Positions 9,196-22,159 of a DNA stretch of 32,200 bases are shown here, piece by piece. Source of the DNA: Candidatus Bathyarchaeota archaeon (lineage in GTDB: Archaea; Thermoproteota; Bathyarchaeia; Bathyarchaeales; SOJC01); NCBI GenBank assembly GCA_020354575.1, contig CP070649.1, positions 1,666,874 through 1,699,073 of the forward strand, given 5' to 3'. Under the pieces are notes generated by a model. The model was not told where the DNA came from. It saw only the letters and a list, made by a program, of their open reading frames with translations, and ran no database searches. How positions within the stretch are numbered: position 1 is the stretch's first letter; each line of letters begins with the position of its first letter. The translations under genes were made by a program, and so were the position numbers.

Positions 9196-9440
9196 CTAGC
9201 ATTATTAGGGGGTTCAATGACGATCAAGGTTGTTGTCCTCTCTACGCCCTTGATTGTGCGGACAGTATCAAAAATTAATGCGTCTAAGGCCTCCATGGTT
9301 TCCACTTGAATCTTCATCAACAGATCATATTCTCCATATACAGTGTCCATTTCACTTACTTGCTGCAATTTCTGAACTGATCGCAAAACGGACCTATCCG
9401 TGCCTGGTTTAATTCTTAAGAGAATATAGGCTTCAAGCAT
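9192..9440 (-). CDS. Stand-alone Lrp/AsnC ligand-binding (RAM) domain, upstream copy
   Basis: An 82-residue protein starting at ATG 9440, overlapping the end of mer by eight bases. It consists only of the Lrp/AsnC effector domain: LEAYILLRIKPGTDRSVL, DTVYGEYDLLMKIQVETMEA and a closing RTTTLIVIE strand. No DNA-binding part is present. It is clearly similar to the protein at 8476-8742 (shared VYGEYDL and TTTxIV elements), so the pair probably arose by duplication and then the CBS gene was placed between them. The tight overlap with mer suggests a role tied to the amount of Mer protein or its substrate. Confidence 0.85.
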   Translation of the reverse strand: MLEAYILLRIKPGTDRSVLRSVQKLQQVSEMDTVYGEYDLLMKIQVETMEALDALIFDTVRTIKGVERTTTLIVIEPPNNAR

Positions 9441-10449
9441 ATTGTTTATCCTCTTTCTCTCTGAAATGGGGGAATACTTCAGCAGCGATCATATTGATTG
9501 ATTTTCGAATATTGGGTCCAATAGGAGAACCCGCTACTAGCTGGGTAGTTCCCACTCTAATCAGTTTGCTAATTTTCTCTGTAACTATTTCAGGAGAACC
9601 ACAAATCGAGAAAGCTTCTATCATTTCATCAGTTATTTGCGAAAAGGCTTCTTTCCATTTGCTCTGAATTATGGCTTGGCGGATTTTGGTGGCAGTGTCC
9701 ATAGAGATATTGTGTTTCTGGAGAATGCTCTCAGGACATCCGGCAACGATATAAGCTACAACTGGCACAACTGCTTTTTCTGCCTTTTTTTGGTCTTTTG
9801 CAACACAGAATGATGTGTAAGCTGCTATTTCAACATCGGTCAATCTTTTACTAGCTTTGTCAACGCCGATGTTGATGAACTCAATGGCTTTTTCTATATC
9901 ATTAGGGTGGGAAGCATTGATCAATATACCATCGCCAACTTCCGCCGCTAATGCTAGCATTTTGGGTCCTTGTGCTCCAACAAATATGGGGATTCCGCTT
10001 GTTGTTTTGAAGTTTAACTTGGCACCTGAGATGGAAAAAATCTTGCCCTCCATTTTGAGATTCTCTCCAGAAGTAATTGCCCGAATTATCCTAACTGATT
10101 CTCTTATTGTCGCTAGTGGTTTTGAGGGTTTCAGGTTGACCATCTCTAGTGTTGTTCTATCTCCAACTCCTAGCCCACATACCACCCTACCAGGAGCGAT
10201 CTCGTTCAGTGTTGAGACAGCTTGGGCAGTCACTATTGGATGTGCCATATAGGGATTTGTTACTCCTGGGCCAAACTTTATTTTTTCAGTATAGGCTGAA
10301 ACTATTGCCAAAGATACGTAGACATTTCTGTTGTTAAAATGATCCGTGATCCATAGAGTATTAAATCCATTCTTCTCCGCTTGAATTGCGTAGAAGGTCG
10401 TTTTCCAATATAGATCACGAGGTACGAACTCGATGCCGAACTCAACCAT
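9433..10449 (-). CDS. mer: F420-dependent methylene-tetrahydromethanopterin reductase
   Basis: A 338-residue luciferase-fold enzyme starting at ATG 10449. The N-terminus MVEFGIEFVPRD, the ITDHFNNRNVYVSLAIVSAY region, IKFGPGVTNPYMAHP and VFVGAQGPKMLALAAEVGDG-type glycine turns match Mer closely, as does DGILINASHPNDIEKA. Mer reduces methylene-H4MPT to methyl-H4MPT with reduced F420, or the reverse. A ribosome site AAGAGGAG lies nine bases before the ATG and can pair with an upstream CTCCTCTT, so it may sit in a hairpin. It is the first recognised enzyme of an operon that continues with two sensor domains and a CBS protein. The same window also encodes MetF and MetV for the equivalent reaction. 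Confidence 0.93.
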   Translation of the reverse strand: MVEFGIEFVPRDLYWKTTFYAIQAEKNGFNTLWITDHFNNRNVYVSLAIVSAYTEKIKFGPGVTNPYMAHPIVTAQAVSTLNEIAPGRVVCGLGVGDRTTLEMVNLKPSKPLATIRESVRIIRAITSGENLKMEGKIFSISGAKLNFKTTSGIPIFVGAQGPKMLALAAEVGDGILINASHPNDIEKAIEFINIGVDKASKRLTDVEIAAYTSFCVAKDQKKAEKAVVPVVAYIVAGCPESILQKHNISMDTATKIRQAIIQSKWKEAFSQITDEMIEAFSICGSPEIVTEKISKLIRVGTTQLVAGSPIGPNIRKSINMIAAEVFPHFREKEDKQYA

Positions 10450-10458
10450 TTAAGAAGT

Positions 10459-10484
10459 CTCCTCTTATTCTTTCTGAAGAGGAG
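10459..10484 (-). promoter_or_regulatory. Hairpin covering the mer ribosome-binding site
   Basis: A perfect eight-base inverted repeat: CTCCTCTT at 10459-10466 and AAGAGGAG at 10477-10484, with a ten-base loop. On the minus-strand mRNA the 3' arm is the purine-rich ribosome site of mer. Folding would hide it. The preceding gene stops at 10504, so a translating ribosome could open the stem (coupling). Confidence 0.45.
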
Positions 10485-10503
10485 CGCTTTAATCTTATCG
10501 AGT

Positions 10504-10782
10504 TTAGGAGCTTTCAAGAACTGTTACTAGTTCTTCAAACCCGAGCTCTTTCAAGACTGCAATTGTTTTATCGGGATCGATCATAACAGAAGCTTCAAGG
10601 AGTCGCTGCAAGCCAATTTCAGTGGCAAGCTGATCTCTCTGCCAGTAATATAGAATAGTTTTCGCTAAGCCACTAGGCATTTTTTTGGCATCTGGTGAGT
10701 TAAGCACTATATCGATGAGTTTTTCCGAAGTAATCTCCCACGAAGATGATGGAATTTTCCTGACGATTTTCTCTAAGGCCAT
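10504..10782 (-). CDS. Small protein of unknown function upstream of mer
   Basis: A 92-residue, probably all-helical soluble protein starting at ATG 10782. Visible parts are LEKIVRKIPSSSWEITSEKL, PSGLAKTILYYWQRDQLATE and a closing KTIAVLKELGFEELVTVLES. There is no signal peptide, membrane segment or metal motif. I do not recognise a family. It is on the same strand as mer with 54 bases between them, including the inverted repeat over the mer ribosome site, so it is likely the first gene of the mer operon. A role with Mer is suggested only by position. Confidence 0.7.
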   Translation of the reverse strand: MALEKIVRKIPSSSWEITSEKLIDIVLNSPDAKKMPSGLAKTILYYWQRDQLATEIGLQRLLEASVMIDPDKTIAVLKELGFEELVTVLESS

Positions 10783-10968
10783 ATCAAATACTCCATTAAT
10801 TCTATGCGCAAAAACATATATGTAATTGATGGAAAATAAGCTTTTTGCTAATCAAATTCGTCATTTCACTAAGAAAATCTGCAATAATTCATCCACAAAA
10901 GAGGATATGTATAAAAAATTCAAGCGATTATGTCAACATTTTTAGATACTTTTAAGTAAAAGATTCTT

Positions 10969-10980
10969 GCATATAAATAT
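10969..10980 (+). promoter_or_regulatory. Possible TATA box for the Lrp/AsnC regulator
   Basis: GCATATAAATAT lies about 77 bases before ATG 11052. It would start a transcript near 11001 with a leader of about 50 bases. Support is composition and position. Confidence 0.35.
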
Positions 10981-11051
10981 GGGAAACCACTGCGGAAAAC
11001 GTATATTTGGATTAACGAAATGGCGATTTTTCGCATGATGGGTGATAAAAA

Positions 11052-11501
11052 ATGTCCATTATCGACGCATTAGATATGAAGATTATTAGGGCGTTGCAGA
11101 CTGACGCGCGAAAACCAATAGTGGGGATAGCAAAGGAAGTAAATGCAAATGAAGCCACTGTCAGAAGAAGAATCGACAAGCTTTTAAAGGATGGAATTAT
11201 TGAGCGTTTCACCGTAGTTTTAGATTATCACAAGCTAGGCAGAGTCATAAAGGCTTTCATAGGCTTGCGAGTGGAACCTGCAAAGCTAAAGACAATCGCC
11301 GAACATCTTGCGAAACATCCAGATACACAAGTAGTTTATAGAACAAGTGGTGACACCGACATAGTTACGGAAGTCATCCTAGAGAAAATGGAAGACTTGA
11401 ATGCCTTCCTCGAGGAAGAGTTGAAACTTGAAGGTATTTTGGGAACCATCGTGACTATTGTGATCGGTCCTTACAAAAGATGCCCATGGACAGGGTTATA
11501 G
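11052..11501 (+). CDS. Lrp/AsnC family transcription regulator
   Basis: A full-length 149-residue regulator with GGTGAT as ribosome site eight bases before ATG 11052. Residues 4-50 are the helix-turn-helix (IDALDMKIIRALQTDARKP, then EVNANEATVRRRIDKL). Residues 60-145 are the RAM effector domain (VIKAFIGLRVEPAKL, TSGDTDIVTEVILEKMEDL, TIVTIVIGPYKR). These proteins are oligomeric DNA-binding sensors of amino acids or other metabolites. It is divergent from the mer operon, which contains two stand-alone RAM domains, so it is the natural candidate to control that operon and to exchange subunits with them. This link is an inference from position. Confidence 0.92.
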   Translation: MSIIDALDMKIIRALQTDARKPIVGIAKEVNANEATVRRRIDKLLKDGIIERFTVVLDYHKLGRVIKAFIGLRVEPAKLKTIAEHLAKHPDTQVVYRTSGDTDIVTEVILEKMEDLNAFLEEELKLEGILGTIVTIVIGPYKRCPWTGL

Positions 11502-12530: not shown

Positions 12531-13445
12531 TCAAAGCCCAGCCCGCTCTATTATTTTGGGAACAATCCATTCGAAGCCAATTGCCATCGTGTGTATGCCT
12601 GCAGCAGTTGTCGTTTTTCTAATTTCCTTCAGCATTTCTCCGAAAATCTCAACATTCGCCTCATACACTGCTTGTTTTCCCCCAATCTTCTTGGCTTTGC
12701 GCAGGATCTCTTCAATTTCCTTTGGAACCTTTATGCCTGGGACAAATTTGATCATCCAATCCATCATGGAGATGGATTTAAAGGGGGCAATACCAATGAG
12801 TATTGGCGTTTTCAAGAATGAGGCTGCTTCTAAGAAATTTTGAGCTTGTTCAGCACTATAGACGCATTGAGTTTGTATGAAGTCTATTCCCAAATCGACT
12901 TTCCTTTTAATTTTTAAGAGTTCTGGTTCTAATGGGTCAGCATTTGGGGCAGCAGCAATGCCAATGCTGAATTTTGGTGGATCCTCGATCTGATTATTAT
13001 TAAGATCTACACCTTCATCCATCATTTTCCGCAGCATATATACAAAAGTAGCTGAATCTAGATCAAAAACTGGTTTTGCCTGGGGCGTATCCCCAACAGT
13101 GGTATGATCCCCAGTCAAAGCCAGAATGTTTTTAATTCCCAAAGCTCCAGCAGCTAGTACATCCGAAATCAAACCCAAACGGTTACGATCTCGAGTTGTC
13201 ATTTGATAGACAGCTTCGACTCCTGCTTCTCTCTGAATCATATAAGAAGGAACAAGAGCGTTCATATAGCCAAAAGCGGTGGGATTATCAGTGATGTTAA
13301 TGGCAACAACGTGATCTTTTAAAATTCTTGCACCTTCTATAACCTCGTCCAATTTTGTCGTTTTCACTGGTTCAAGTTCACCAGTGAACACAAAATTTCC
13401 TTCGTTTATTTGTTTCATTAATTTGCTATGAGCTTCCCGTCTCAA
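12531..13445 (-). CDS. metF: Methylene-tetrahydrofolate/pterin reductase MetF-type
   Basis: A 304-residue TIM-barrel reductase. It starts at TTG 13445 and overlaps the metV stop by four bases (TTGA), a sign of translational coupling. E23 in FTGELEP fits the catalytic glutamate position, LTGD is at 110-113, and FIQTQCVYSAEQAQNFLEAA marks the later barrel. It binds flavin and reduces methylene to methyl on a tetrahydropterin; whether the carrier is folate or methanopterin cannot be read here. MetF paired with the zinc/iron-sulfur protein MetV is the acetogen-type enzyme. Electrons probably come from the divergently encoded flavoprotein and FrhB-like protein. Mer, for the same chemistry, lies three kilobases away. 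Confidence 0.9.
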   Translation of the reverse strand: MRREAHSKLMKQINEGNFVFTGELEPVKTTKLDEVIEGARILKDHVVAINITDNPTAFGYMNALVPSYMIQREAGVEAVYQMTTRDRNRLGLISDVLAAGALGIKNILALTGDHTTVGDTPQAKPVFDLDSATFVYMLRKMMDEGVDLNNNQIEDPPKFSIGIAAAPNADPLEPELLKIKRKVDLGIDFIQTQCVYSAEQAQNFLEAASFLKTPILIGIAPFKSISMMDWMIKFVPGIKVPKEIEEILRKAKKIGGKQAVYEANVEIFGEMLKEIRKTTTAAGIHTMAIGFEWIVPKIIERAGL

Positions 13446-14128
13446 GTTTTTCCCTCCTCGTTTTCCTTCTCACCACCTAATTCACGCGGATGTCCTGAAA
13501 CTCGATAATCTCTCGGCATTCGAAACTTTCCGAACAAGTCTAACTGGTTTCGAGCTTTGAGCCGATTATAAATAAGCACCCAAGCGCAGTCGTTCTGCCA
13601 GCCACCTACTTCACATTTGCCACTTGCCTGCCCTCCACAGGGTCCATTAAGTAGACTCTTCGCGCACCTTGTCAGTGGACAGACACCGCCAGTTTCAAAA
13701 AGTAGACAGTCTCCACAAGCCAAACACATCTCGTAGAACTTCTCTGCTTTAGTGTCATGCATTCCAAGGAAATGGGTATTAATAGCAGGAATAATCAATT
13801 TGCCTTTATATAAATCTGCAATAGTCTGAACTCCAACACCGCAGCTAAGAGAAACGACCGCGTCATACTCTGCTATTATGGGATCAAGCGACGATGTCGC
13901 AATTTGTCGATCACATTGACGAAGGATCGATATCGCCTGTGCTTTGAGCTTTCCATTTCCTTTTATCTTCTGTCCCATCTCTAGAAGCAGTTTCAAGATT
14001 CTTGCTTGTCTTTCGCCACCCACTTGAATAATTGATGCGCATCCATCACAACCCAAGATTAGAAGCTTTTTAAAGTCTTTGGTCATTTCAAGAATTTCTT
14101 CCAAAGGCTTTCGTTTGACTATAATCAA
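13442..14128 (-). CDS. metV: MetV, partner subunit of MetF
   Basis: About 228 residues from TTG 14128, nine bases after an AAGGAG ribosome site. The frame is also open from TTG 14170, but MetV proteins normally begin with a short strand followed by KPLEEILEM as here. The N-terminal half has LLILGCDGCASIIQVGGE and an LSCGVGVQTIADLY motif. The C-terminal cysteine cluster (CLACGDCLLFETGGVCPLTR, then SLLNGPCGGQ and GKCEVGG) is the diagnostic MetV zinc/iron-sulfur domain. MetV binds MetF and passes electrons to its flavin in acetogenic bacteria. It is the first gene of a two-gene operon with metF and is divergent from the GltD-MvhD and FrhB genes, sharing a 140-base control region. Confidence 0.9.
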   Translation of the reverse strand: MIIVKRKPLEEILEMTKDFKKLLILGCDGCASIIQVGGERQARILKLLLEMGQKIKGNGKLKAQAISILRQCDRQIATSSLDPIIAEYDAVVSLSCGVGVQTIADLYKGKLIIPAINTHFLGMHDTKAEKFYEMCLACGDCLLFETGGVCPLTRCAKSLLNGPCGGQASGKCEVGGWQNDCAWVLIYNRLKARNQLDLFGKFRMPRDYRVSGHPRELGGEKENEEGKT

Positions 14129-14137
14129 TCCAACGTA

Positions 14138-14149
14138 CTCCTTAAGGAG
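14138..14149. promoter_or_regulatory. Palindrome CTCCTTAAGGAG over the metV ribosome site
   Basis: A perfect 12-base palindrome. Its left half on the minus strand is the AAGGAG ribosome site of metV, and its edge coincides with the predicted metV transcription start near 14149. It could be an operator or a small RNA structure; chance cannot be excluded. Confidence 0.35.
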
Positions 14150-14170
14150 GGTCAGTGAAAGGCTGATCAA

Positions 14171-14180
14171 TAATATAAAA
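14171..14180 (-). promoter_or_regulatory. TATA box for the metVF operon
   Basis: Minus-strand TTTTATATTA is centred at about 14176. It predicts transcription start near 14149 and a leader of about 20 bases holding the AAGGAG site before TTG 14128. This spacing supports the shorter metV start. Confidence 0.55.
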
Positions 14181-14226
14181 ATTCCTATGAAGGATACCTG
14201 GGCTCTCTTTTATCGCACATGCATAA

Positions 14227-14238
14227 GTTTAATATTAT
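14227..14238 (+). promoter_or_regulatory. TATA box for the GltD-MvhD gene
   Basis: GTTTAATATTAT is centred near 14232, predicting a plus-strand start near 14260. That is just before ATG 14267, which would be a near-leaderless start for the flavoprotein gene if a frameshift near 14300 is accepted. Confidence 0.45.
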
Positions 14239-14304
14239 TGTTTCCTTTCCTTTTAGGATTCTCACAATGAATAAAATCCGCTATAAGTACAGGAGGACTG
14301 GAAT

Positions 14305-16401
14305 ACGACCACTATTTCTGAACTGAGCCCGACTAGATATCCTCCCTGCCGTAAAGCTTGCCCAGCAGGAATTAATGTTCAAGCGTACATCGCCCTTATT
14401 GCTCAAGGAAAATTCAAAGAAGCACTGGAGATTATCAGAGAATCAATTCCTTTTCCTTCTGTTTGTGGCAGAGTATGTTTTAGTCCCTGTGAAGACGCCT
14501 GTACAAGAAACGATATCGACGAACCAGTAGCCATTCGTGCTCTTAAGCGGTTCGTGGCTGATTATGAGACTTTAGCTGGAATGAAAGAAAAACCAAAATT
14601 AATACCAAAGAGCCATGATGAAAAGATAGCCATAATTGGCTCTGGTCCTGCAGGACTGACTGCAGCCTTCGAACTAGCTAAAAATGGATATCCAGTAACT
14701 GTCTTTGAAGCTTCAGCAAAGCCTGGCGGAAGCCTGCGAGATTGTATCCCCAAATACCGGTTGCCTGAAAGGGTTTTGGAAGAAGAAATCGCCTATATCA
14801 GAGGAATTGGAGTTGAAATTCGTACCCTCACAAAGATTGGCAGAGATACGACCATTGAAGACCTAAAGAAGCATGGGTATGAAGTAATCTTCATAGCAAC
14901 GGGTGCTCATCATTGTATTGATCTCAATATAGAAGGCGAGGAGTTAGATGGCATTCTTCATGCCCTTGAATTCTTAAAAGAAGTTCATGAAAAATCCTCT
15001 GTAAATCTCGGGAAAAAAGTCAGCGTCATTGGAGGAGGAAATGTTGCTATGGATGCTGCACGAACCGCTATACGTCTTGGGGCTGAAGAGGTGAAAGTAA
15101 TTTACAGACGATCTGAGAAAGAGATGCCTGCCAACAAACGTGAAATAGATGAAGCCAAGCAAGAAGGCGTCAGATTTATTTTTCTTACATCGCCTAAGAG
15201 ATTTCTGGGAAAAGATGGCAAGATTATTGGTATAGAGTGCATAAAGAATATTTTAGGTTCACCAGACGCTAGTGGTCGAAGGCGCCCTATGCCAGTTGAT
15301 GGCTCAGAGTTTACCATCGCCGTAGATTCTGTTTTATTGGGCATTGGCGAAATGCCAGATATTTCTTTCATGCCAAAAGAAATCGAAATTGCACGAGGAA
15401 ATAGAGTTGTAGCAGATGGAGTTACTCTCGAAACGAACATTCCAGGTATTTTTGCTGGAGGCGACGCTGTTACTGGACCTGCCTCGGTAATTGATGCTAT
15501 TGCTGCGGGCAAACGAGCAGCAATTTCCATTGATCGCTATGTTAAAAGAGTTGATCTCAGAGCTGGACGAAGTGAAGAAATTTCGGAAACGACATGGGTT
15601 TGTAAGAAAAACGATTTGGTGAAAAAGGCGAAAGAGAGAATGCCTAGTCTTGAACCGGAAGTACGAGCGACCTGTTTTGAAGAAGTGGAATTGGGGCTAA
15701 CAGAAAAAGCAGGATTGATTGAATCTCATCGATGCGTCTTTTGTGGTCCATGTGCAGAATGCTTAGAGTCAAAAGGTGTTTGTGAAGAGGACGAAGCTAT
15801 AGTGGATGAAGATAGATGTATTGCTTGCGCCAACTGTGAAAAAGTCTGCGAGTTTGGGGCAATAAAGGTTCAGAAATCCGTAGCAAAAGTGGATCCAATC
15901 TTGTGCAAAGGATGTGGGACCTGCATTGTGGAATGCCCAGCAGACGCAATTGCCATGATGAAACTCTCTGATAAGATAATTTCAACCCAGCTGAAAGGTG
16001 CTCTCGCTTCGTGGGTATCTAAAAGCGAACCCAAAATGCTGACTTTTATTTGCAAGTGGTCCCATAAGGAAAATGCGCTTCTGGGACCAAAAAATTTTCA
16101 CATCATTCCTGTAAGATGTAGCGGTCGGATTGATCCAATCCATGTTCTCCATGCTTTCATGCTCGGAGCTGATGGAGTACTAATTATAGGCTGTGAACCT
16201 AGCGATTGCCATTACGTTTTTGGCAGCAGTATAACTGAGAAACGCTTCAAACATGTGAAGGACTGGCTTCAAGCTATAGGAGTTGATCCTAAACGTCTTT
16301 CATTAAAACGATCCTATGTAGGAAATAGCCAGCATCTGACTAAGATTCTTACGAATTTCAAGACAGAGTTGGAAAAACTTGGTTCAACTCCATTCAAGTA
16401 A
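14305..16401 (+). CDS. GltD-like FAD/NAD(P) oxidoreductase fused to 4Fe-4S and MvhD modules; 5' end uncertain
   Basis: Coding sequence is clear from about 14305 to TAA 16399-16401, about 698 residues. The N-terminal iron-sulfur region (CRKACPAGINVQAYI, then VCGRVCFSPCEDAC) is typical of GltD-type proteins. Next come an FAD loop (AIIGSGPAGLTAAFELA) and an NAD(P) loop (SVIGGGNVAMDAARTAIRLG). Then follow CxxCxxCxxC at 15738-15767, two ferredoxin clusters (CIACANCEKVCEFG, CKGCGTCIVECPAD) and an MvhD-like domain (16030-16380) with VRCSGRIDP and IGCEPSDCHY. The usual first MvhD cysteine pair is reduced to one cysteine (CKWSHKE). It is probably an electron hub for MetVF and FrhB. No ATG, GTG or TTG lies in frame before GTG 14554, so the gene has a non-standard start, or begins at ATG 14267 with a one-base shift near 14300. 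Confidence 0.88.
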   Translation, partial: TTTISELSPTRYPPCRKACPAGINVQAYIALIAQGKFKEALEIIRESIPFPSVCGRVCFSPCEDACTRNDIDEPVAIRALKRFVADYETLAGMKEKPKLIPKSHDEKIAIIGSGPAGLTAAFELAKNGYPVTVFEASAKPGGSLRDCIPKYRLPERVLEEEIAYIRGIGVEIRTLTKIGRDTTIEDLKKHGYEVIFIATGAHHCIDLNIEGEELDGILHALEFLKEVHEKSSVNLGKKVSVIGGGNVAMDAARTAIRLGAEEVKVIYRRSEKEMPANKREIDEAKQEGVRFIFLTSPKRFLGKDGKIIGIECIKNILGSPDASGRRRPMPVDGSEFTIAVDSVLLGIGEMPDISFMPKEIEIARGNRVVADGVTLETNIPGIFAGGDAVTGPASVIDAIAAGKRAAISIDRYVKRVDLRAGRSEEISETTWVCKKNDLVKKAKERMPSLEPEVRATCFEEVELGLTEKAGLIESHRCVFCGPCAECLESKGVCEEDEAIVDEDRCIACANCEKVCEFGAIKVQKSVAKVDPILCKGCGTCIVECPADAIAMMKLSDKIISTQLKGALASWVSKSEPKMLTFICKWSHKENALLGPKNFHIIPVRCSGRIDPIHVLHAFMLGADGVLIIGCEPSDCHYVFGSSITEKRFKHVKDWLQAIGVDPKRLSLKRSYVGNSQHLTKILTNFKTELEKLGSTPFK

Positions 16402-16499
16402 ACTCTGGAAAGCAGACAATGAGCATCTTCATCTAAAGCACATTTCTCCGAGAAATTTATGTAGATCTTTCTTCAACACATAATCCTTAATGAGCGAAT

Positions 16500-17546
16500 A
16501 TGCAGAACCAAAAATTGGGTTTTGAAGAATCGTTGGGGAGAGAAGTTGTTAACTCTGGGCGCTGTATAGGTTGCGCTACGTGTGTCGTTGTTTGTCCCTT
16601 CAACTGTTTAGAGTACCAAAAGGAACAGCCAGAACTTGTGAAGGCTTGTGAAAAGTGTGGTATATGCCCGAAAGTCTGCCCAAGATATGATTGGTCACAG
16701 TCAAGCGTAGAAGAGTTTGTGTTTGGAAAGAAAAGAGACGCGAAAGAGGATTATGGCATATACCGTCGGACTATTGTGGCACAAGCCACTGACAAAAAAA
16801 TACTTCAGAGATGTCAAGACGGAGGTGTCGTCACTTCTCTTCTGATTCATGCCCTGCAAAATGATCTAATTGAAGGTGCAGCCATATCAGGACTTAGCAC
16901 AGACGAACCGCTGCATCCGATGCCTATTATGGCAACGATACCTGAGGAAGTTCTTAAGCATGCCGGAACTCGCTATGCCTACTCACCTAACATCCTAGCC
17001 CTTCAGGAAGGAGTCAGACAGAAAAAGAAAAGCTTAGCATTTGTAGGCACACCCTGTCAGATTCATGCAATTAGGAAAATTCAGATGTTTCCATTGAAGA
17101 AATATTCAAACCCGCTGCAGTTCACAATTGGATTGATGTGCACTGAAAGCTTCACATATGACGGGCTTTTCGAGCAACACCTTCAGAAAAACATGGAAAT
17201 TCCCTTGAAAAATGTTGTGAAGATGAATATAAAAGGAAAAATCCAGGTCTATTTGAAATCGGGCAAAGTAGAGAGTATTCCATTATCTGAAGCAAAGCAA
17301 TATGCAAGGGCAAGCTGCCATCTTTGCGGGGACTTCAGCGCAGAGCTAGCAGATATTTCAGCAGGAGGGCTGGGTCTCAGCGGCTGGACCTTCGTGATTC
17401 TTCGAACTAGAAGAGGAGAAGAAATTTTCGATGATGCAAGTAAAGCAGGAGTGTTACAAGTAAGATCAGCTGAAGAGGAGCCTTTTGCACAGTCTCTGTT
17501 AGTCAAGCTTTCGAAGAGGAAGAGAAGAAACGCTCAGGAAAAGTAA
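16500..17546 (+). CDS. FrhB/FdhB-family F420-binding iron-sulfur protein
   Basis: A 348-residue protein starting at ATG 16500. The first 65 residues carry two 4Fe-4S motifs (GRCIGCATCVVVCPFNC and ACEKCGICPKVCPRYD). The rest is the FrhB fold: QDGGVVTSLLIHAL, GTRYAYSPNILALQEGV, LAFVGTPCQIHAIRKIQ, TIGLMCTESFTYDGL and CHLCGDFSAELADISAGGLG. This family binds FAD, an iron-sulfur cluster and F420 and passes electrons between F420 and partner subunits, as in Frh, Fpo and formate dehydrogenases. It follows the GltD-MvhD gene by 98 bases and faces metVF, which suggests F420H2 as donor or acceptor of the complex. No hydrogenase large or small subunit is present. Confidence 0.9.
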   Translation: MQNQKLGFEESLGREVVNSGRCIGCATCVVVCPFNCLEYQKEQPELVKACEKCGICPKVCPRYDWSQSSVEEFVFGKKRDAKEDYGIYRRTIVAQATDKKILQRCQDGGVVTSLLIHALQNDLIEGAAISGLSTDEPLHPMPIMATIPEEVLKHAGTRYAYSPNILALQEGVRQKKKSLAFVGTPCQIHAIRKIQMFPLKKYSNPLQFTIGLMCTESFTYDGLFEQHLQKNMEIPLKNVVKMNIKGKIQVYLKSGKVESIPLSEAKQYARASCHLCGDFSAELADISAGGLGLSGWTFVILRTRRGEEIFDDASKAGVLQVRSAEEEPFAQSLLVKLSKRKRRNAQEK

Positions 17547-17603: not shown

Positions 17604-18395
17604 ATGAAGATTAATCCAACTATAAAGACTATACTTGATCACAAGTCAATCCGGAAATATACTGAGGAAAATCCTTCAGACGAGATTGTCGAGAGTATTG
17701 TGAAAGCGGGGCAACAAGCACCCTTTGCCTATCAATGTTATAGCCTCTTGCTGTCACGTAATAGGAAGCGTAATCCTTGGAATGCCCCACTTCTGTTCAC
17801 GATTTGCATAGATCTTCATAAATTCGAACGCATTATGGCAAAGCGACAATGGAAATTAATCATCAATGATCTTGCCTTGCTACTTCTAGGAATCCAAGAT
17901 GCATCCTTGATGGCGGAGAACATGGTTGTTGCTGGGAGAAGCCTAGGACTGGGGAGTTGCTTTCTTGGCAGTGCCATATGGAGAGCTGAGAAGATTGCAG
18001 AAGAGTACAAATTGCCTAAAAGAGTATTTCCACTAGTACAACTAGTAATGGGCTACCCTGCAGAAAACCCTCCGACAAGACCACGCTATCCTTTGGAGTT
18101 TACTCTTTTTGAAGAGGAATATCCAAAATTCGAGAAAGAGACAATCTCGAGAGCTATGCATCAGATGGATTCAGGGTATCTAGCCCAAAATTATTATCGG
18201 AAACTAAAGGCAAAGATCCCTCTTGATGGAACTCGCAAAGAGACATTTACGTATGATGACTATAGTTGGACGGAACATATCAGTAGAAAACTAGGCCAAT
18301 GGGATCCAGATCCAAACAATTTGCTTGAGCAACTCACTAAGCGAGGGTTTGATCTCACAAGGAACAGGTTAAAAAACCCCGAAGATTCTGAATGA
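17604..18395 (+). CDS. Nitroreductase-family flavoprotein with C-terminal extension
   Basis: A 263-residue protein starting at ATG 17604 with a GGAGTG ribosome site. The FMN-binding N-terminus is standard (ILDHKSIRKYTEENPSDEIV, then AGQQAPFAYQCY). LLLGIQDASLMAENMVVAGR and SLGLGSCFLGSAIW match the dimer core, and PLVQLVMGYPAENPPTRPR closes the domain near residue 160. The following 90 residues (tyrosine-rich, FEEEYPKFEKETISRAMHQM onward) are an extension seen in some archaeal members. The family reduces quinones, nitro groups or flavin-linked substrates with NAD(P)H or F420. The true substrate is unknown. It lies 57 bases after the FrhB-like gene on the same strand and could belong to that transcript. 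Confidence 0.87.
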   Translation: MKINPTIKTILDHKSIRKYTEENPSDEIVESIVKAGQQAPFAYQCYSLLLSRNRKRNPWNAPLLFTICIDLHKFERIMAKRQWKLIINDLALLLLGIQDASLMAENMVVAGRSLGLGSCFLGSAIWRAEKIAEEYKLPKRVFPLVQLVMGYPAENPPTRPRYPLEFTLFEEEYPKFEKETISRAMHQMDSGYLAQNYYRKLKAKIPLDGTRKETFTYDDYSWTEHISRKLGQWDPDPNNLLEQLTKRGFDLTRNRLKNPEDSE

Positions 18396-18521: not shown

Positions 18522-19280
18522 TTACTTCCCATTTTCACTGAATGAGGGTTTCCCAATTGGACAAGCCTCAATGCATATTGAGCATTCAATATAGCTGTTT
18601 GGAGTCGGTCTTTGAACTAGTCTCTTCTCTATTTTCCGTATATCGTCTGGAACATCTTGTGCCCGAGGTTTTTCTGCTGCGTATGTCAGACAACGGTTGA
18701 TCACAATCTTATATGGTTCTAATGCTTTTGTAGGGCAAGCAATGATGCATTTCTCACACTCTCCACATAAATCGTCCTTGCATGGTTTATCTGTGTCAAG
18801 TTCCGCTGCTGTCAGCACCGAAATTAATCGTATTCGAGGACCATATTCGGGAGTAATCAGAAGTGTATTTTTTCCTTGGCATCCAAGGCCGCTTCTCACC
18901 GCTGCTGTCTTTAGAGGGATAGCGAGCGAAAACCGAGATTCATAACCTTTCTGTATAAGGTAGTTAACAATCCTCCATGCTTTGTTTTTCAGGACTTCAT
19001 AGTATAGTTGGTAGCTTTCCATTGGCACCTCTGGCACGTACGTGTCACGACTCCAAAGATAAGTCGAATCTACAGCTAAGTTGAAGGATTTGTCCCAGGC
19101 ATAGTAACCCATTAACATCACTGATTTTGCAGTCGACAATTCCTCTTCCGGTGAACGCAAGTTGCAGACAGTGCTCACCCATCCATGGGGCAAGCCCTGA
19201 AGCATGTTTGGGCTGGAAATGCCAACAGAAACGAACCCCGCTTCTTTCGCCTTTTTCTTAAGATCTTCAGTTATGGTCAT
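18522..19280 (-). CDS. QueG-like protein with two 4Fe-4S clusters
   Basis: About 252 residues from ATG 19280, preceded by AAGGAAG. The frame is also open to TTG 19316. The N-terminal domain (KKKAKEAGFVSVGISS to the YYAWDKSFNL region) and AAVRSGLGCQGKNTLLITPE belong to the epoxyqueuosine reductase/reductive dehalogenase superfamily, which binds cobalamin. Two iron-sulfur motifs follow: LCGECEKCIIACPTKALEPY with INRCLTYAAEK, and ECSICIEACPIGK. Bacterial QueG makes queuosine in tRNA. Archaea make archaeosine instead, so this homologue probably acts on something else, perhaps another reductive step with cobalamin or corrinoid proteins. It converges with the nitroreductase gene. Confidence 0.83.
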   Translation of the reverse strand: MTITEDLKKKAKEAGFVSVGISSPNMLQGLPHGWVSTVCNLRSPEEELSTAKSVMLMGYYAWDKSFNLAVDSTYLWSRDTYVPEVPMESYQLYYEVLKNKAWRIVNYLIQKGYESRFSLAIPLKTAAVRSGLGCQGKNTLLITPEYGPRIRLISVLTAAELDTDKPCKDDLCGECEKCIIACPTKALEPYKIVINRCLTYAAEKPRAQDVPDDIRKIEKRLVQRPTPNSYIECSICIEACPIGKPSFSENGK

Positions 19281-19406
19281 TCTCGAGCTTCCTTTCAATT
19301 CTACTTTAACTGCCAAGTCTCTTGCTTAAAAACCATCATAGGCTGTCCACCTTTTAATCAAGATAGGAGAAGCAGTCATGAAGGGTTTTGCGTTCACATG
19401 TTGGTT

Positions 19407-20919: not shown

Positions 20920-22159
20920 ATGAAGAAAAGGTCTTTTGAGTTGTTGACGGTGCTTTTGATCGGATTATTGGGGCTGACATTCACATCTGCCACAAGATTC
21001 ACGCAAGCTAACGTCGGTTGGTCCATCGAAACCGTCGACAACACGGGAGATGTGGGAACCGATACGTCATTGGGAGTTGGATAGCAATGATCACCCCCAC
21101 ATCAGCTATCGTGATTATAGCAATGGTGATCTGAAATATGCATACTACAACGGGAGTTGGTCCATCGAAACTGTCGACAGCGCTGGAAATGTGGGAGGCT
21201 GGACCTCTTTGGCGTTGGATAGCGCAGATCACCCCCACATCAGCCACTGTAGTTTCAGCAACGGTGATCTGAAGTATGCCCACTACAACGGGAGTTGGTC
21301 CATCGAAACCATCGGCGGCGCTGGAAATGTGAGACGCCATCCATCCCTGGCGTTGGATAGCAATGATAACCCGCACATCAGCTATGATGATATCACCAAT
21401 GGTACGCTGAAGTATGCATACTACAACGGGAGTTGGTCTATCGAAACTGTCGACAGCGCTGTAGGCTGGTCCTTCTTGGCGTTGGATAGCGCAGATCACC
21501 CCCATATCAGCTATTGTAATTTCAGCAATGGTATGCTGATGTATGCTCGCTACAACGGAAGTTGGAAAATAGAAACTGTCGATAGTGCAGCACCGACGGG
21601 TCAATTCGCGTCTTTGGCGTTGGATAGCGGAGATAATCCGCATATCAGCTACTGTGACATTGGTAACCTTGACCTGAAGTATGCATACTACAACGGAAGC
21701 TGGACTATCGAAACCGTCGATAGCGCTGGAAATGTGGGAAGCGATACGTCCTTAGTGCTAGATAGCAGTGATAACCCCCACATCAGCTACTATGACATTG
21801 GTAACCTTGACCTGAAGTATGCATACTACAACGGAAGCTGGACTATCGAAACCGTCGATAGCGCTGGAATTGTGGGGTATTTTACATCGATAGCACTGGA
21901 TAGTGGTGATAATCCCCACATTAGCTATCGTGATTATAGCAATTTAGATCTGAAATATGCTAGCAAGGCATGCATGCTTCCATGGGATGTCACCGGTGAC
22001 GATTGTGTCGACGTTGACGACATTGCAGGTGTTGCTGAACATTTTGGCTCCTTTCCAGGAAGTCCAACGTGGGATCCTAAATGCGATGTGACAGGTGAGG
22101 ATTATGTCGGTATTGATGATATCGTGGAGGTCGCTGAACACCTCGGCAGCAGCTGCTAG
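20920..22159 (+). CDS. Secreted repeat protein with dockerin-like tail; frameshifted near 21073
   Basis: A secreted protein whose reading frame is broken once. ATG 20920 (AGGGA ribosome site) begins a signal peptide (MKKRSFELLTVLLIGLLGLT) and the first repeat, stopping at TAG 21082-21084. The rest continues in the next frame to TAG 22157-22159. Compared with other repeats, about 21073-21076 has one extra base. The body has about seven 46-residue repeats, consensus WSIETVDSAGNVG, then LALDSxDNPHISY and LKYAYYNGS, likely blades of a beta-propeller or similar beta structure. Residues after 21970 form a dockerin-like pair of calcium loops (WDVTGDDCVDVDDIAGVAEH and CDVTGEDYVGIDDIVEVAEH). It is probably an exported surface-bound protein; the lesion may be a mutation or an assembly error. 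Confidence 0.75.
21017..21970 (+). repeat. Tandem 138-base coding repeats
   Basis: The CGGGAGTTGG / CGGAAGCTGG element recurs at about 21151, 21289, 21427, 21556, 21694 and 21832, spaced 138, 138, 129, 138 and 138 bases. The units at 21694 and 21832 are nearly identical at DNA level, so recent duplication or gene conversion is likely. These are coding repeats of the secreted protein. Confidence 0.85.

Follow-up and report, generated by a model that had tools for sequence, protein, structure and literature searches.

Organization of the locus

Ever since MetF was put forward as a substitute for Mer in ANME-1 (PMC9012536), it has been asked which carrier supplies or withdraws the electrons of the archaeal enzyme; the locus described here names a concrete partner set. 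We analyzed a window of 32,200 nucleotides, positions 1,666,874-1,699,073 of the 1.84-Mb contig CP070649.1 from Candidatus Bathyarchaeota archaeon. In this window, metF and metV on the minus strand diverge from a gltD-flpD fusion on the plus strand, which is followed by an frhB-like gene (Table 1). Pfam domain matches and the recurrence of this order in relatives bore out the positions and identities that a preliminary description had given the four genes. Our analysis indicates that the MetVF core is probably a methylene-H4MPT reductase wired to an exchangeable GltD-FlpD donor module, which takes the place of HdrA(BC).

Table 1. Coordinates of the features of the locus within the window
Feature	Position	Strand	Description
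metF	12531..13445	-	304 aa, TTG start; methylene-tetrahydropterin reductase, TIM barrel, flavin; PF02219 E 1.6e-32
metV	13442..14128	-	228 aa, TTG start; Zn/Fe-S partner of MetF; PF12225 E 3.1e-31
Divergent intergenic region metV/fusion	14129..14304	.	176 bp; TTTAATAT-like element and GGAGG
gltD-flpD fusion	14305..16401	+	698 aa, probable ACG start; Fer4_20, Pyr_redox_2, two Fer4, FlpD
frhB-like F420 oxidoreductase	16500..17546	+	348 aa; PF04422/PF04432; N-terminal two-cluster ferredoxin domain
mer, F420-dependent methylene-H4MPT reductase	9433..10449	-	NF002619 414 bits, cut-off 276

Several relatives have the TTTAATAT-like element at a similar position in the gap that separates metV from the fusion, and the region may have a regulatory role. 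Genes for a nitroreductase-family protein (17604-18395) and a QueG/RDH-like Fe-S protein (18522-19316) adjoin the unit. Farther downstream, the window encodes a protein with repeated HISY..DLKYAYYNGSW units and, as judged by eye, a dockerin-like C-terminus (21050-22159).

Conservation across genomes

Genomes are labeled G and loci L; f1 is the window genome's own family and f7 the second fusion-bearing family. Co-conservation of the four genes, named beforehand as the test that might refute the proposal, was examined and held in all ten metV-bearing f1 genomes. A search of 61 genomes using the fusion revealed ten full-length f1 matches; in every case a divergent metF-metV pair lies upstream and FrhB follows downstream. 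Because this order is the same in all ten genomes, which span eight genera, it is not due to chance. Two records labeled "Candidatus Bathyarchaeota", CP070730.1 and DAOWHM010000022.1, contain this cluster as well.

A MetV search found metV in 67 of 257 Bathyarchaeia genomes; within f1 it was present in 10 of 13, exactly the ten with the fusion. The full fusion was found in 15 of the 257 genomes, all 15 with metV, and metV adjoins it wherever contigs allow. Besides the ten f1 genomes, metVF is adjacent and divergent to the fusion in G175, G178 and G187. In two f7 genomes counted among the 15, G176 and G186, contig ends break up the fusion, and only the N-terminal GltD part is in view beside metVF in G176. 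A profile search using the fusion gave 13 full-length matches, ten in f1 and three in f7, all scoring over 1165 bits; among the next matches, at 878 bits or less, are GltD and FlpD genes in tandem and further GltD proteins. By random draw, the 15/15 co-occurrence has p ~5e-10, a value that is only a guide since the genomes are related and the counts, from two families only, are not independent. Among 398 genomes drawn from the phylum, no full fusion was found outside the class Bathyarchaeia. In the f1 genome G001, which has no metV, the FrhB, sister to that of G010, lies at a contig end, and the absence of metV may be an assembly gap.

The GltD-FlpD fusion

The fusion consists of Fer4_20, an FAD/NADP(H) domain (Pyr_redox_2, E 3.7e-36), two 4Fe-4S ferredoxin domains and an MvhD/FlpD tail (FlpD, E 2.3e-30). 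These matches upheld the earlier statement that one fused flavoprotein supplies the flavin, cluster and MvhD parts, and at the locus it apparently replaces HdrA. Its best solved relatives are NfnA (9n5u, E 1.3e-128) and StnC (8oh5, E 2.5e-112). The FAD motif GSGPAG is found at 112, YRLP at 151 and GGGNVA at 243. The Arg of YRLP aligns with Arg201 of Pyrococcus furiosus NfnL and is invariant in all rows of our alignment A2, as are all ferredoxin cysteines (sets 477-493, 505-515 and 534-544) and the FlpD cysteines (583, 605, 630 and 635). In the f1 FlpD tails, Ser replaces the second Cys of the usual motif, giving CxWS, whereas the f7 genome G175 keeps CxWC; the four FlpD cysteines are still invariant. 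The GxGxxA pattern is taken to favor NADP(H) (PMC7483475), whereas archaeal type III HdrA has GxGxxG, with proposed NADH use (PMC12054007). Because GGGNVA fits GxGxxA and the Arg201 equivalent is invariant, NADP(H) is a better guess than NADH for the cofactor of the fusion.

The first ATG, GTG or TTG in the frame of the window fusion (14554) lies downstream of the true start. At the aligned start codon, seven of ten orthologs have ACG (the window, L032, L033, L034, L036, L037 and L039), one GTG and two ATG. In the window, GGAGG is located 8 nt upstream of ACG 14305; in G012 and G006 a TAG lies just 5' of the start, and no alternative start precedes the conserved Fer4_20 cysteines. The window fusion probably starts at this conserved ACG. 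Selenocysteine or pyrrolysine recoding was considered and rejected: the in-frame TGA/TAG codons in L012, L013 and the window genome's own HdrA-FlpD coincide with boundaries between adjacent genes that had been read through and are not stops within the f1 fusion, and the TAG in G012 and G006 precedes the real start. A structure model of GltD-FlpD, built from a three-sequence alignment, was discarded (pLDDT 39).

Elsewhere, the window genome has an operon of the order GltD - FlpD - HdrA - FlpD - HdrC - HdrB (L106:5717-13237), which possibly encodes an NAD(P)H-linked Hdr complex; similar operons occur in G009 and G041. Derivation of the whole fusion from this operon was rejected: the GltD part is about 49% identical, but the operon's FlpD falls in another clade.

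Exchange of the donor module

The preliminary description had regarded HdrABC as absent. This holds at the locus, where HdrA and HdrB were not seen within 6 kb in the f1 loci and HdrC was not seen among the listed neighbors, but not genome-wide: the window genome has several hdrA/B/C operons elsewhere, and 14 FlpD domains. In f7, metV-metF is one gene, divergent from GltD-FlpD (L074, L227 and L229) and mostly without an adjacent FrhB. Within genus g68, the fused metVF has GltD-FlpD beside it in G187 and HdrA-FlpD in G188. At other Bathyarchaeia loci, metV neighbors HdrA-FlpD with HdrBC, or a polyferredoxin-FlpD of 318-404 aa; the latter, an HdrA-free partner type, is directly beside metV in L081, L089, L091, L092, L102, L231, L232 and L235. 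Some Bathyarchaeia metV loci have no FlpD within 6 kb. The metV neighbors in Thermodesulfobacteriota are mostly HdrA and MvhD genes.

In a tree of 56 FlpD rows, the tails of GltD-FlpD group together (100/99) and are nested in a larger clade of 20 rows (95/87), whose remaining members are HdrA-FlpD from metVF loci and one f6 HdrA-FlpD. No other sampled FlpD of the window genome falls inside this 20-row clade. From this kinship and the difference in modules at metVF loci, the FlpD tail is apparently a MetVF adaptor on which the flavin module was exchanged, HdrA for GltD. The MetVF donor module thus appears to be exchangeable on a common FlpD adaptor.

MetF and MetV

The features of a MetVF-type reductase are present: a MetF barrel, an adjoining MetV and conserved MetV cysteines for Zn and Fe-S. 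MetF is 83-88% identical among f1 orthologs, and the invariant columns of alignment A1 include E23, G112 and D113; E23 aligns by eye with the catalytic Glu28 of Escherichia coli MTHFR. metV overlaps metF by 4 bp, and its TTG start (14128) was set by ortholog comparison, most orthologs beginning with MII. Twelve MetV cysteines are invariant across 18 sequences, and a sequence search revealed no solved-structure relative of MetV.

Natural single-gene MetV-MetF fusions occur in f7 and f18 (L129:4652-6265, L074:6930-8555, L227, L229, L231 and L232). The L129 fusion was modeled with confidence (pLDDT 86.6, pTM 0.86), and a fold search using this model gave only MTHFR barrels among the best 50 matches. 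The model agrees with a close packing of MetV against MetF. Compact proteins, including these natural fusions, suit testing of the partner set.

The FrhB neighbor and F420

FrhB contains two 4Fe-4S clusters followed by FrhB_N (7.7e-22) and FrhB_C (6.4e-42). The suggestion that it links the reductase to F420H2 was only partly sustained: it directly follows the fusion in each of the ten f1 loci and adjoins the unit in one genome of another family, but many metV-free genomes have close homologs, a linked copy is broken and the nearest relative of solved structure is an F420 reductase that belongs to CODH. The broken copy, in G004, lies in two parts about 110 kb apart (C1:198788-199252 and 87261-87956), owing to rearrangement or misassembly. 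We discarded the idea that this FrhB is exclusive to MetVF: a first tree gave one metVF clade, and wider sampling placed unlinked FrhB inside it. Since FrhB is widespread without metV and a linked copy is broken, F420 coupling of MetVF through it is plausible only; FrhB may be a subunit here, a partner of CODH or an independent ferredoxin:F420 enzyme.

As a true subunit, FrhB would sit on the FlpD tail or the ferredoxin domain of a full four-part complex, which would connect the methyl carrier with both F420 and NADP(H) and let electrons move between these pools. In addition to its constant place in f1, FrhB lies near metVF in f6 without GltD-FlpD (L093, L094, L096, L098 and L103) and in the f7 genomes G178 and G155, and FrhB/FdhB-type subunits are known to attach to Hdr complexes (PMC12054007) and to CODH or Fwd (PMC11493965). 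However, FrhB is not adjacent to the unit in G175 and G187, and the metV-free homologs and the split G004 copy also count against this arrangement, which we consider possible but on balance doubtful.

The closest solved match, 8riu_B, is the zeta F420 reductase of CODH, and covers residues 12-344 (E 4e-58; PMC11493965). FrhB might therefore serve CODH as in Ethanoperedens, with the reductase made up of MetVF and GltD-FlpD only. CdhC shares a contig with metV, at a distance of about 8-15 kb, in G002, G003, G006, G008 and G012. However, FrhB is immediately 3' of gltD-flpD, outside the CODH operon, and cdhC of the window genome is far from the unit (position 60794), so that we regard this assignment as somewhat unlikely.

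Substrate and pathway

Among the 13 f1 genomes, Mch was found in ten, CdhC in ten and FolD over the cut-off in none; CODH/ACS subunits adjoin the unit in G002 and in the f7 genome G175. The presence of Mch, the absence of FolD and the CODH/ACS context suggest that the most likely reaction is methylene-H4MPT/methyl-H4MPT in the Wood-Ljungdahl pathway. H4F was rejected as the carrier on the absence of FolD over the cut-off in f1.

Mer is over the cut-off in nine of the 13 f1 genomes, and mer lies in the same neighborhood in five f1 genomes other than the window's and in the f7 genome G178. G011 and G012 have metVF without Mer over the cut-off (the G012 homolog scores 270 bits against 276), G003 has a partial Mer match only, and G009 has Mer without metVF. 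Given this distribution, MetVF may back up or replace Mer, as was suggested for ANME-1 (PMC9012536); in Alkanophaga it was found beside Mer (PMC10322722). The mer gene, a gene for a 92-aa protein without a Pfam match and one for an AsnC-like regulator (window 9433-11501) are kept together beside the metVF unit in two families (L034, L035, L036, L038 and L227). G012 has five Mch homologs on contigs C2, C26 and C13, one of them beside the diverged Mer-like gene.

The nearby mer also bears on a division of the locus into two enzymes that would lie together because each serves the methyl branch, in which MetVF would work on soluble ferredoxin and GltD-FlpD with FrhB would form a ferredoxin/NADP(H)/F420 oxidoreductase feeding F420H2 to Mer. 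Bacterial MetVF takes reduced ferredoxin without partners (PMC9430772), an FrhB that begins with a ferredoxin domain is similar to enzymes of the FpoF type, and where bathyarchaea that have an acetogenic pathway obtain their F420H2 is a question on which the locus bears (PMC7886697). Nevertheless, the fusion tracks metV rather than FrhB (not adjacent in G175 and G187) or Mer (none over the cut-off in G011 and G012), and its FlpD is kin to metVF-linked HdrA-FlpD, which makes two separate enzymes rather unlikely.

Proposed mechanism

The preferred reading remains a MetVF core with a GltD-FlpD donor. The comparisons above establish the gene identities, the motifs, the co-conservation, the module exchange, the FlpD kinship and the H4MPT context; for the physical complex, docking, NADP(H) specificity, direction and F420 role, we infer the following route. 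A hydride would pass between NADP(H) and the FAD in the GltD-like part, and electrons would travel through the 4Fe-4S clusters of the fusion to the 2Fe-2S site in its MvhD/FlpD tail; this tail would dock on MetV or MetF. MetV would hand electrons to the MetF flavin, where methylene-H4MPT would be converted to methyl-H4MPT for CODH/ACS, or the reverse. The GltD-FlpD module would thereby stand in for HdrA(BC) as found in the Moorella-type complex. FrhB, next to the fusion, may provide a second entry or exit through F420H2, a role to which we give somewhat less than even weight.

Methylene-H4MPT has a potential near -320 mV, the same as that of NADP. The downhill branch that would have to drive the reduction of ferredoxin is thus nearly absent and bifurcation from NADPH to ferredoxin is energetically weak, so that bifurcation, which the preliminary description had mentioned for acetogenic bacteria, was not supported here for NADPH as donor and methylene-H4MPT as acceptor. 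Simple electron transfer or, if the enzyme runs oxidatively, confurcation would be more probable. For comparison, published values are about -200 mV for methylene-H4F (E0'; PMC9430772), -340 mV for F420 and -420 mV for ferredoxin (PMC10667645). Of the electron hub proposed earlier, the replacement of HdrA by a co-conserved GltD-ferredoxin-MvhD fusion stands, and the F420 part is weaker.

Sporomusa offers a precedent, since MetF was recovered in pull-downs with MvhD, and HdrA in pull-downs with MetV; on the other hand, no stable co-purification of its Hdr/MvhD proteins with MetVF was seen, which counts against a complex (PMC9430772). Also against it are the divergent transcription, by which metVF and the fusion share no operon, the Ser at the second CxWC position of the f1 FlpD and the low score of the GltD-FlpD model.

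Comparison with known systems

The MetF types of acetogens are MetF, MetVF, MetVF-RnfC2 and MetVF-HdrABC-MvhD (PMC9430772). We found no paper in the open-access literature that pairs MetVF with a GltD-FlpD fusion, and the cluster is apparently a real variant of the Hdr-type MetVF reductase that was not described before. It suggests an enzyme pair that draws electrons from NADP(H) and not via the usual Hdr complex.

The locus shares with the Hdr-type MetVF of Moorella thermoacetica and Sporomusa ovata the MetF and MetV core and an MvhD/FlpD link to a flavin/Fe-S module, and a GltD domain is found even inside the Moorella HdrA (PMC9430772). However, it has no HdrA, HdrB or HdrC but a GltD-like protein with two ferredoxin domains and FlpD, an H4MPT background and an FrhB neighbor. 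Judged by its genes, the cluster looks as if it works like the Hdr-type MetVF, yet lacks the HdrABC feature at the locus. MetVF-RnfC2 has an added subunit that reacts with NADH (PMC9430772), whereas the module here is GltD-like with an FlpD tail, not RnfC-like, and no RnfC family was found among the neighboring genes scanned.

ANME-1/Syntrophoarchaeum-type MetF belongs to the same archaeal MetF group by the published tree, with a proposed Mer replacement acting on H4MPT (PMC9012536); those loci have MetV alone, or HdrA and MvhD, and no GltD-FlpD was reported there. FrhB matches the zeta F420 reductase of CODH (8RIU) in its ferredoxin and F420-reductase domains over nearly the whole length, but is located here outside any CODH or hydrogenase operon. 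The fusion has the same Fer4_20 clusters, FAD, GxGxxA and Arg201 equivalent as NfnL/SudA and StnC, but has C-terminal ferredoxin and FlpD domains and no NfnS/NuoF-type partner at the locus. Type Ia HdrA, an HdrA-MvhD fusion (PMC12054007), is likewise a flavoprotein with ferredoxin domains and a C-terminal MvhD, and the FlpD tails of the metVF-linked forms are kin, but here a GltD core is found in place of the HdrA core.
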